Shown one piece after another: positions 1 through 4,977 of a stretch of 5,097 bases of DNA (within the stretch, counting starts at the first letter, position 1; each line of letters begins with the position of its first letter). This DNA comes from Betaproteobacteria bacterium (GTDB taxonomy: Bacteria > Pseudomonadota > Gammaproteobacteria > Burkholderiales > SG8-39). Location: the NCBI GenBank assembly GCA_029865405.1, contig JAOUGZ010000243.1, positions 1 through 5,097 of the forward strand. The letters are read 5' to 3'. The notes beneath the pieces are model-generated. The model made no database searches and was not told the DNA's origin. It saw only the letters and a program-made list of their open reading frames with translations. A program made the translations under genes and the position numbers.

Positions 1-2686
<2,686 letters not shown>

Positions 2687-2696
2687 AAAAGGCCGG

Positions 2697-2736
2697 AAAA
2701 ACAAAACGCCCGTTCGGCTTGCGCGGAAACGGGCGT
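2697..2736 (-). terminator. Intrinsic terminator in the metH 5' leader (candidate attenuator)
   Basis: On the minus strand, ACGCCCGTT (2736-2728) and AACGGGCGT (2714-2706) form a perfect 9-bp stem. The 13-nt loop can fold further around a GCAA tetraloop closed by two G-C pairs. The stem runs straight into TTT-G-TTTTT (2705-2697), a proper U-tract. In the plus direction no T-run follows, so the terminator acts on minus-strand transcripts. It ends about 10 nt before the metH ATG. The gene upstream is divergent, so the only transcripts it can stop are those heading into metH. That placement suggests conditional termination of metH transcription. Confidence 0.8.
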
Positions 2737-2738
2737 CT

Positions 2739-2773
2739 GGGCACGTCTCTTTAGCAGTATTTGTAACGCGCCC
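2739..2773 (-). promoter_or_regulatory. Leader hairpin upstream of the metH terminator
   Basis: On the minus strand GGGCGCGTT (2773-2765) pairs with GACGTGCCC (2747-2739) over nine consecutive positions, seven Watson-Crick and two G-U. The 17-nt loop contains the last codons and stop of the short leader ORF. The hairpin sits 2 nt before the terminator stem, so both can form together. Part of its 5' arm (2774-2769, CGGGCG) can instead pair with CGCCCG (2735-2730) of the terminator's 5' arm, and would then act as an antiterminator. CGCGCC at 2798-2793 could also sequester GGCGCG at 2772-2767. Short G/C complementarity is common in GC-rich DNA, so this needs covariation support. Confidence 0.4.
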
Positions 2774-2786
2774 GCAAGCTGAACAT
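2751..2786 (-). CDS. Possible 11-residue leader peptide ORF upstream of metH
   Basis: An ATG at 2786 opens a short frame encoding [11 protein letters not shown], ending in TAA. It lies between the predicted metH promoter and the leader terminator, as expected for a peptide read during attenuation. It is basic and aromatic, with a Cys codon just before the stop. It is not rich in Met codons, so classic methionine-codon stalling is not indicated. Its codons for Arg-Ala-Arg lie in the 5' arm of the hairpin at 2739-2773, and Lys-Tyr-Cys plus the stop lie in the loop, so a ribosome here would change the folding. No Shine-Dalgarno sequence is visible, and an ORF this short can arise by chance. I do not recognise a family. 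Confidence 0.3.
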
Positions 2787-2806
2787 CAAATCGGCGCGAG
2801 TGGCGC

Positions 2807-2835
2807 AGTGTGCCCACATAAGCCTGCTATGTCAA
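2807..2835 (-). promoter_or_regulatory. Predicted sigma-70 promoter for metH
   Basis: On the minus strand a perfect -35 box TTGACA (2835-2830) is followed after exactly 17 nt by CACACT (2812-2807), a weak -10 matching TATAAT at three of six positions. Transcription would start near 2800, giving a leader of about 114 nt that contains the short ORF, the hairpin and the terminator. The -35 is convincing. The weak -10 suggests either modest activity or need for an activator. Confidence 0.45.
2816..2832. promoter_or_regulatory. Inverted repeat ACATA-N7-TATGT, candidate operator
   Basis: Perfect 5-bp arms ACATA and TATGT flank a 7-bp spacer. The dyad falls inside the predicted metH promoter, covering its spacer and part of its -35, and lies 15 bp upstream of the rhodanese -10 box. 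A protein bound here could affect both divergent genes. Arms this short can occur by chance, and I cannot assign a regulator. Confidence 0.22.
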
Positions 2836-2863: not shown

Positions 2864-3259
2864 ATGGAGCATCTCGAACCGAAGCGGGCGTACGAGTTCC
2901 TCAAGCAGCACGCCGACGCGCTGTTCGTCGACTGTCGCAGCGAGATGGAATACCTGTTCGTCGGCCACCCGGTCGGCGCGCTGCACGTGGCCTGGAACGA
3001 CGGGCCGGAGTGGGCCGTGAACCCGCATTTCGTCGGCCAGGTGAAAAAGCTCGCCGGCACCAATCACAACACGCGTCCCGTGGTGCTCATCTGCCGCAGC
3101 GGCAACCGCTCCCGGGAGGCTGGCGAAGAACTGGAGCGCGCCGGGTTTACCCGTATCTACAACGTGCAGCATGGCTTCGAGGGCGAGCTGAACGACAAGC
3201 ACCAGCGCAATTCGCTCGCCGGCTGGCGCTTCGCCGGCCTGCCGTGGGAACAGTGCTGA
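2864..3259 (+). CDS. Single-domain rhodanese-like sulfurtransferase
   Basis: The 131-residue protein is one rhodanese domain, which typically carries sulfane sulfur as a persulfide on its active-site Cys; the in vivo donor and acceptor cannot be read from sequence. The active-site loop CRSGNR is at residues 77-82 and follows a VVLI strand, so Cys77 is the catalytic cysteine. The domain also has the family's early FVDCRSE segment (21-27, with a second Cys24) and GFTRIYNVQHGFEGE near 94-108. There is no signal peptide or membrane segment, so it should be cytoplasmic. The start is well fixed: an in-frame TAA at 2849-2851 excludes longer forms, and the next Met is residue 28. There is no Shine-Dalgarno sequence and the -10 box is only 11 nt away, so the mRNA is probably leaderless or nearly so. 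Its stop overlaps the next gene's start. It is divergent from metH, a sulfur amino-acid gene, but a shared role is only inferred. Confidence 0.92.
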   Translation: MEHLEPKRAYEFLKQHADALFVDCRSEMEYLFVGHPVGALHVAWNDGPEWAVNPHFVGQVKKLAGTNHNTRPVVLICRSGNRSREAGEELERAGFTRIYNVQHGFEGELNDKHQRNSLAGWRFAGLPWEQC

Positions 3260-3695: not shown

Positions 3696-4259
3696 TCAGA
3701 AGTCGAAGAACGCCGTCTCGTCCCTGCCCTGCAGGACGATGTTCCACTCCAGCACGCCCTTCGCCCTGCGCCTGGCGATGAGCGTGGCGCGCCGTGGTGC
3801 GGGAACACGCTTCAGGACCGGGTCCTGCGCGTTGGCCGGGTCGCCGGGGAAGTAGATCCGGGTCGAGAGTTGCTTGAGCAGGCCGCGCATGAATACCGTC
3901 ACCGACAGGTGCGGCGCCTGCAGCTTTCCGCCCAGGCCGGGCACCCGGCCCGGCTTCACGGTGCTGAAGCGGAAACGCCCCTTGGCGTCGGTCGGAATGC
4001 GCCCGAAGCCGCGAAACCCTTTCTCCAGCGGGATCTGGCGCCGGTCTTCCGGGTGCGCGTACTTGCCTGCCGCGTTCGCCTGCCAGATCTCGACCAGGCC
4101 GTCGGACACGCCGACGCCGTCGCCGTCGAGTAGCCGCCCCTGGATGACGACGCGCTCGCCCTTCATGGCGGGGCTGGCGATGCGCGCGGTGTTGAGCCAC
4201 GTCAGGCCGATGTGCAGGTAGGGGCCGACCGTCTGCGAGCCGCTGGCGTAAAGGCTCAT
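3696..4259 (-). CDS. pcaG: Protocatechuate 3,4-dioxygenase, alpha subunit
   Basis: This is the alpha subunit of the non-heme Fe(III) intradiol dioxygenase that cleaves protocatechuate to 3-carboxy-cis,cis-muconate, the entry step of the beta-ketoadipate pathway. The alpha subunit lacks the iron ligands but helps build the active site. The 187-residue protein has SQTVGPYLHIGL at 8-19, the intradiol core EIWQANAAGKY at 57-67, VKPGR at 101-105, APHLSVTVFMRG at 115-126, TRIYFPGDP at 133-141, and the typical C-terminus ETAFFDF. Arg125 aligns with the P. putida alpha Arg133, which contacts the substrate carboxylate. The ATG at 4259 is chosen over one 21 nt upstream because GGAG (4269-4266) lies 6 nt ahead of it and it follows the pcaH stop by one base. 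It is slightly shorter than the usual roughly 200 residues. Its stop lies 2 bp from the convergent thioesterase stop. Confidence 0.95.
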   Translation of the reverse strand: MSLYASGSQTVGPYLHIGLTWLNTARIASPAMKGERVVIQGRLLDGDGVGVSDGLVEIWQANAAGKYAHPEDRRQIPLEKGFRGFGRIPTDAKGRFRFSTVKPGRVPGLGGKLQAPHLSVTVFMRGLLKQLSTRIYFPGDPANAQDPVLKRVPAPRRATLIARRRAKGVLEWNIVLQGRDETAFFDF

Positions 4260-4260
4260 C

Positions 4261-4977
4261 TCACTCTCCGGGCGAGTCATCCATGGGCGTCGCCTCGCGA
4301 CCGCGCAGGACGATGTCGTACCGGTACGCGAGCGCGTGCTCCGGCACCGTGTTTTCCCAGTCGAACTGCGACACCAGGCGCACGCGCGCCCTTTCGTCCG
4401 GGATGCTCATGTACATCGGGTCGTAGGGCAGCAGCGGATCACCCGGGAAATACATCTGCGTGACCAGGCGCGTGAGGAACGCCTGGCCGAAGAGCGAGAA
4501 GTGGATGTGCGCCGGTCGCCATGCGTTGTAGTGGTTGCGCCACGGGTATTCGCCCGGGCGGATGGTGATGAAGCGGTAGCGCCCCGCCGCGTCGGTGAGC
4601 GTGCGGCCGGCGCCAGAAAAGTTGGGATCGATGGGCGCATCGTGCCGGTCATTCTTGTGAGGGTAGCGGCCCGCCGCGTTCGCCTGCCACACCTCGACCA
4701 GCGTGTGCGGCACGGGCCGGCTGTTTTCATCCAGCACCCGGCCGCTGACGATGATGCGCTCGCCGAGCGGCTCGCCCTTGTGCTGGCGCGTGAGATCGTT
4801 GTCCGTGGGCTCGAGATCATGGTCGCCGAACACGGGCCCGGTGATCTCGGACAGCGTTTGCGGCACGATGACCAGGGGCTGCGTCGGATGGCGCTTGGCC
4901 GTCGAGGCGTAGGGCGGGAAATCGTACTCGGGCTGTGTGCCAGGATGAAACCTGCGATAGGCGTGGAGCTTGGTCAT
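4261..4977 (-). CDS. pcaH: Protocatechuate 3,4-dioxygenase, beta subunit (iron-binding)
   Basis: This is the catalytic subunit partnering PcaG. The 238-residue protein carries a complete Fe(III) site: Tyr105 (GRYPHKND), Tyr144 (GEYPWRN), and His157 and His159 (RPAHIHF). These align with Tyr108, Tyr147, His160 and His162 of P. putida PcaH, and Arg154 matches its active-site Arg157. The N-terminal part has the PcaH-type region with the SEITGPVFG motif at 43-51. The C-terminus has LAYRYDIVLRGR near 216-227. The ATG at 4977 follows the maiA-like stop by 2 bp. A longer in-frame ATG at 5085 would add 36 residues lying inside that upstream gene, with no resemblance to PcaH, and is rejected. The ribosome site is weak (GAG in GCAGAGTGACC), so translation may depend on coupling to the upstream gene. 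The pcaH-then-pcaG order is the family's usual one. Confidence 0.97.
   Translation of the reverse strand: MTKLHAYRRFHPGTQPEYDFPPYASTAKRHPTQPLVIVPQTLSEITGPVFGDHDLEPTDNDLTRQHKGEPLGERIIVSGRVLDENSRPVPHTLVEVWQANAAGRYPHKNDRHDAPIDPNFSGAGRTLTDAAGRYRFITIRPGEYPWRNHYNAWRPAHIHFSLFGQAFLTRLVTQMYFPGDPLLPYDPMYMSIPDERARVRLVSQFDWENTVPEHALAYRYDIVLRGREATPMDDSPGE
4266..4269 (-). promoter_or_regulatory. Ribosome binding site of pcaG
   Basis: GGAG lies within the last codons of pcaH, 6 nt before the pcaG ATG at 4259. It decides between the two in-frame ATGs, and the junction TGA-G-ATG implies coupled translation and balanced subunit production. Confidence 0.6.

Follow-up and report, generated by a model that had tools for sequence, protein, structure and literature searches.

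A terminator hairpin that stands between the promoter of a gene and its start codon raises the question of whether, and in response to what, transcription continues into that gene. Such a hairpin occurs upstream of metH in a 5,097-nucleotide stretch of DNA from a Betaproteobacteria bacterium, the whole of which is referred to here as the window (Table 1). The hairpin has a perfect 9-bp stem on the minus strand, formed by ACGCCCGUU (2736-2728) and AACGGGCGU (2714-2706) around the 13-nt loop UCCGCGCAAGCCG with GC-GCAA-GC inside. The stem is followed by the tail UUUGUUUUU (2705-2697), read as UUU-G-UUUUU (U3-G-U5), and 10 nt separate the end of this U-tract from the metH ATG (2686-2684). The sequence confirms the original prediction on these points, namely the perfect 9-bp stem, the GCAA loop and a T3-G-T5 tract about 10 nt from the ATG, and also on the divergent neighbour, which is a rhodanese-domain ORF.

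No second hairpin of this type (stem perfect over 9 bp or more, loop of up to 14 nt, T-rich tail) was found on either strand of the window, and 20 shuffles of each window strand produced none. When the 177-nt intergenic region was dinucleotide-shuffled 1000 times, 1 shuffle reached an equal hairpin score, as did 1 of 2000 shuffles of the 130 nt located 3' of the GCUAAA motif of the upstream aptamer described below. The hairpin is omitted by a generic terminator scan because that scan accepts loops of 3-8 nt only. Elsewhere in the window, two adjacent intradiol dioxygenase-type genes were identified at 3699-4280 (minus) and 4264-4974 (minus), the latter with a protocatechuate 3,4-dioxygenase beta N-terminal domain; both are ordinary catabolic genes.

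Table 1. Features of the metH leader and its surroundings, in window positions.
Feature	Position	Strand	Basis
-35 element TTGACA (perfect)	2830-2835	-	sequence
Weak -10 element CACACT (3/6 matches, 17-nt spacer)	2807-2812	-	promoter-like pair analysis
SAM-II riboswitch aptamer, RF00521 match	2731-2807	-	Rfam scan
P1 5' strand CGCGCC	2793-2798	-	RF00521 alignment
UGUUCAGCUUGCG, L1/P2 5' strand, proposed antiterminator strand	2773-2785	-	complementary to 2711-2723
P1 3' strand GGCGCG	2767-2772	-	RF00521 alignment
GCUAAAGAGACGU, conserved aptamer 3' strand, pseudoknot P2 partner	2743-2755	-	RF00521 alignment
GACGUGCCC, predicted 3' arm of anti-P1 hairpin with GGGCGCGUU (2765-2773)	2739-2747	-	partial-transcript folding
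Intrinsic terminator, 9-bp stem, 13-nt loop and U3-G-U5	2697-2736	-	sequence, scan of relatives, shuffles
CGCAAGCCGAACG, terminator loop and start of 3' arm, proposed antiterminator partner	2711-2723	-	complementary to 2773-2785
metH, cobalamin-dependent methionine synthase, runs off the window	2-2686	-	metH domains in the protein
Rhodanese-domain ORF, divergent from metH	2864-3259	+	ORF and domain scan

The Rfam scan of the leader returned a match to RF00521 (SAM-II) directly upstream of the hairpin with 41.4 bits (gathering score 36, E 5e-7), which covers model positions 1-79 of 79. The conserved GAUUUG, GCUUGC and GCUAAAG motifs are all intact, and P1 forms 6/6 pairs in the window; 6/6 pairs were counted in 138/158 leaders. 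Pseudoknot P2 of the window is short and requires a bulge and G-U pairs; over 157 leaders, one P2 position pair covaries clearly (paired in 72%, expected 53%). P2 putatively ends at GACGU, and the terminator stem starts 6 nt further on. It overlaps with its 5' arm the 3' end of the aptamer match, but not the conserved aptamer core. The gene context fits this class, with metH downstream and a predicted transcription start just before P1. The scan of the metH leader gave no match to an SAH or a cobalamin riboswitch, and of the 12 metH loci that were scanned only one, in the relative L020, has a SAH riboswitch ahead of metH.

An undescribed control element, as had been supposed when no known riboswitch class was recognized here, is left with practically no probability. 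Nothing was found in favor of it, and an undescribed riboswitch is ruled out by the RF00521 match above the gathering score at the same place; the Rfam search proposed together with that supposition returns SAM-II, adjoining the hairpin. The supposed unknown element is thereby replaced by a known sensor. Aptamer and terminator are a further case of SAM-II, for which following terminators have already been published, and the hairpin is very probably a regulated terminator of this known class. In the SAM-II (metA motif) description of Corbino et al. 2005, the promoter precedes P1 by a few nucleotides, and many representatives have putative terminators between P2 and the ORF, interpreted as an OFF switch (PMC1273637). 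The window resembles that motif in aptamer sequence, P1, promoter place, terminator place and association with a methionine gene. It differs in belonging to the beta-proteobacterial part of the family, and metH is unmentioned in the searched text of that paper.

There is a high probability that the leader is a SAM-II riboswitch with a transcription-termination platform, acting as an OFF switch of metH. The sequence itself contains the aptamer, a promoter-like pair, the terminator and the complementarity of the L1/P2 strand to the terminator loop and 3' arm, and the switching is inferred. Transcription is predicted to start near 2800, just 5' of P1 and upstream of the terminator. At low SAM, UGUUCAGCUUGCG (2785-2773) would pair with CGCAAGCCGAACG (2723-2711) as the latter emerges, and this antiterminator pairing would delay the terminator, allowing the polymerase to read into metH. 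When SAM is bound, the L1/P2 strand would be held in pseudoknot P2 and loop 1, which would block the antiterminator, and the hairpin at 2736-2706 would end transcription near 2697. Methionine synthase would consequently be made mainly under SAM scarcity. A comparable system is predicted for the SAM-II riboswitch of Sinorhizobium meliloti metZ (sRNA RZ), in which SAM would let a Rho-independent terminator form and yield a short leader RNA (PMC9373788). The likeness to the window lies in the SAM-promoted terminator, predicted there and proposed here, and the difference in the gene and in the host, an alphaproteobacterium.

The arrangement was compared among 399 genomes from the order of the related genome that holds locus L004. 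RF00521 was matched at E<=0.001 in 178/399 genomes and above the gathering score in 69/399. From the matches listed under strict filters 158 leaders were fetched, giving 159 with the window; kinship among leaders was ignored in every leader test. A terminator-like hairpin within 130 nt after the aptamer was called in 145/159 leaders compared to 44/477 shuffled stretches, and in 17 of the 18 metH leaders of this set. No terminator was called in the close relative L162 (the same locus as L243), whose metH is 78-79% identical to that of the window. Promoter-like pairs (at least 8/12) occurred upstream in 133/158 leaders, L220 having been dropped by the pattern, while mononucleotide shuffles gave a mean of 8.55. 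In 76 of these 133 leaders, the distance from the end of the pair to GATTTG is 12-14 nt.

Fourteen of the 159 leaders had no terminator call, and in 8 of these a GAGGT- or GAAGGT-like sequence and an ATG lie right after GCUAAA. These 8 represent a translational form, as described for metX SAM-II (PMC10907184), and they lend some weight to a reading in which SAM acts on translation by hiding the ribosome site upon binding, with the hairpin being secondary. For the window this is very unlikely, as 63 nt and a strong terminator separate the GCUAAA core from the ATG, and no Shine-Dalgarno-like sequence was seen either in the aptamer tail or ahead of the start codon.

A DNA search with 2600-2840 of the window provided a second set of 19 loci with metH, as well as L242 without metH; it overlaps with the first set in at least two loci (L243 = L162, L248 = L221). 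A SAM-II core was present in 17/19 metH loci (all except L255 and L256), and a terminator was called in 15 of these 17 (all except L243 and L258). In L239, L240, L241, L244, L245, L250, and L257, TTGC and GCTAAA are 38-57 nt apart instead of the usual 18-19, apparently due to a hairpin inserted in loop L3. These seven are missed by RF00521 at E<=0.1, and 9 of the 17 SAM-II-like metH leaders in total have no match at that threshold. Of four inserts that were folded, only that of L258 beats most shuffles (1/200), the others standing at 15-22/200. Optional insertions are mentioned in a figure legend of the 2005 description (PMC1273637). In the L254 metH leader, a hairpin appears to be inserted in loop L1 of the SAM-II-like core.

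metH is a recurrent SAM-II target in relatives of the window organism. It lies downstream of 18 of the 159 leaders among the matches listed, a share that is not a true frequency due to the strict filters and to the leaders with inserts that RF00521 misses. Searching the literature by titles and abstract openings returned no SAM-II leader of metH; metH behind the related SAM-V class is mentioned in the searched text of PMC2704228, and SAM-II is unmentioned in PMC13273304.

The proposed antiterminator rests on the complementarity of UGUUCAGCUUGCG to CGCAAGCCGAACG, which includes one A-C mismatch and one G-U pair; when the terminator was dinucleotide-shuffled 5000 times, 2 shuffles scored equally well. 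The same complementarity was found in L239, L240, L241, L244, L245, and L250, with 0 to 7 of 1000 shuffles equal, and it comprises 12 perfect nucleotides in two of the six. These six, found among the 15 second-set leaders with a terminator, carry metH genes of 73-82% identity to the window, while the L1 pairing is absent at p<=0.05 in the other 9/15 (metH 57-72% identical). Among metH leaders, the L1 pairing is limited to close relatives. In 134 distinct leaders of the first set, terminators matched the L1 segment in 55, the GCUAAAG segment in 45 and either of them in 85 (p<=0.05). For the 17 metH leaders of that set, the L1 pairing was found in 4, only the GCUAAAG pairing in 6 and neither in 7, at the same threshold. 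The metH leaders of both sets that lack the L1 pairing count against the proposed switch, as does L162 with no terminator. GCAAGC occurred in 27 of 131 distinct terminators, three loci having been dropped by the pattern, compared to a mean of 2.7 in shuffles.

Also against the proposal, a swap test found native terminators to be no better matched to their leaders than swapped ones (p=0.18). The test was thus negative for covariation, the match being to the conserved core. The L1-terminator duplex energy over 134 distinct leaders had a mean of -18.0, compared to -16.2 in shuffles, and that of the window pair is not unusual, with 4/50 shuffles equal, which also speaks against the proposal.

Folding was considered both for intermediates and at equilibrium. 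When the window leader is truncated to 88 or 91 nt, the predicted fold contains the antiterminator, arranged around the anti-P1 hairpin. In the intermediate-fold test, at least 6 aptamer-terminator pairs formed in 96/134 leaders, moderately more than the 51% in shuffles. Two results speak against the proposed switch: P1 was lost in 42/134, less often than in the control (47%), and no L1-terminator pairs occurred in the intermediate fold of L241. Equilibrium folding of the full leader without SAM gave -38.3 kcal/mol with the terminator and -33.4 kcal/mol with the antiterminator enforced. As the terminator is favored at equilibrium without SAM, read-through would depend on the order of folding. 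Equilibrium folding was rejected as proof of switching, as it yields no SAM-free ON state.

This preference for the terminator even without SAM also fits a different reading, in which the SAM-II aptamer is real but the terminator is largely constitutive, limiting metH at all SAM levels; a short leader RNA would be made and SAM would act elsewhere, on translation or RNA stability. In S. meliloti metA, expression is lowered in both media by a terminator that follows the SAM-II aptamer, and according to the searched text of the report no antiterminator driven by SAM-II was predictable (PMC9373788). Against it, the complementarity of the aptamer strand to the terminator loop and 3' arm exceeds chance in the window and in the six close leaders, and in the same seven the terminator directly follows the aptamer with no intervening start codon. 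A constitutive terminator is accordingly considered unlikely, and the SAM-controlled terminator is preferred. The conditional read-through into metH suggested in the original prediction is supported by the aptamer next to the hairpin, by where the promoter lies, by the terminators found in relatives and by the aptamer-terminator complementarity; the switching itself is what we infer.

A review is consistent with the proposed competition, reporting P2 and L1 as exposed without SAM and protected with SAM, and P1 as protected in both states (PMC10907184). The L1/P2 strand thus cannot take part in the SAM-bound pseudoknot and in the antiterminator simultaneously. A wider claim, that in a certain beta-proteobacterial clade the pseudoknot strand L1/P2 is the antiterminator strand and that the metXZ element and RF02424 are the same RNA, is given about even chances. 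If true, SAM binding and antitermination would compete for the same nucleotides. The proposal also names a concrete, testable antiterminator for a platform on which, in 2014, there was no more than speculation as to how it switches.

That platform is the metXZ element of Leyn et al. 2014, reported as new in beta-proteobacteria upstream of metX or metZ, with SAM_alpha being reported only in Rhizobiales and Rhodobacterales (PMC4239095). The element has six conserved regions, a pseudoknot and a terminator without sequence conservation, and an antiterminator via regions 3 and 4 was speculated (PMC4239095). It is like the window leader in the pseudoknot followed by a terminator, the speculated antiterminator and the methionine genes, and unlike it in being described as new, not as SAM-II, and in its targets metX and metZ. 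The SAM-II leaders fit the published description and would be the same RNA as the metXZ element.

RF02424 (Bp2_287) is a Burkholderia sRNA reported upstream of methionine genes (PMC3521395). In the window, it matches the plus strand at 2703-2806 with 29.6 bits, where its gathering score is 70, and this sub-threshold match is the point in favor of an antisense or independent plus-strand sRNA. Such an sRNA is extremely improbable. The pieces of the RF02424 consensus shown read, when reverse-complemented, as SAM-II core and terminator, no plus-strand terminator was called in the intergenic region, and U-tract, promoter and gene order all fit the minus strand; the candidate was rejected on the first two of these observations. 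The likeness between RF02424 and the window leader thus lies in this reverse complement and in the place upstream of methionine genes, and the difference in RF02424 being modelled as an sRNA on the opposite strand, with the window under its threshold. Of eight genomes searched, 5 gave a total of 8 RF02424 matches (L259-L266), and a SAM-II-like core lies on the other strand at 6 of these matches but not at the remaining 2; five of the 6 are previously known SAM-II leaders, and L259 alone is fresh. RF02424 may be a model of SAM-II leaders from beta-proteobacteria that was built on the wrong strand. The three names SAM-II, metXZ element and RF02424 likely merge, and treating the latter two as one riboswitch matters for annotation.

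In the first set, 153 leaders are followed by an ORF of 100 aa or more. Besides metH, the main gene clusters had 59, 51, 11, and 5 members. The representative of the largest is a Cys/Met PLP enzyme and that of the second an alpha/beta hydrolase, which we take to be metX. The 11-member cluster (L097 and 10 others, including L114, L127, L144, L155, and L164) has a short downstream protein with no Pfam match in the one representative scanned; this short ORF may be a SAM-controlled gene or a chance ORF. In L104, L110, L131, L142, and L143, SAM-II and a terminator lie upstream of the SAM synthetase gene metK (one representative scanned). An apparent second SAM-II-like core, recognized by eye, follows the first terminator in L183, L217, L164, and L141; tandem SAM-II has already been published (PMC9481103).
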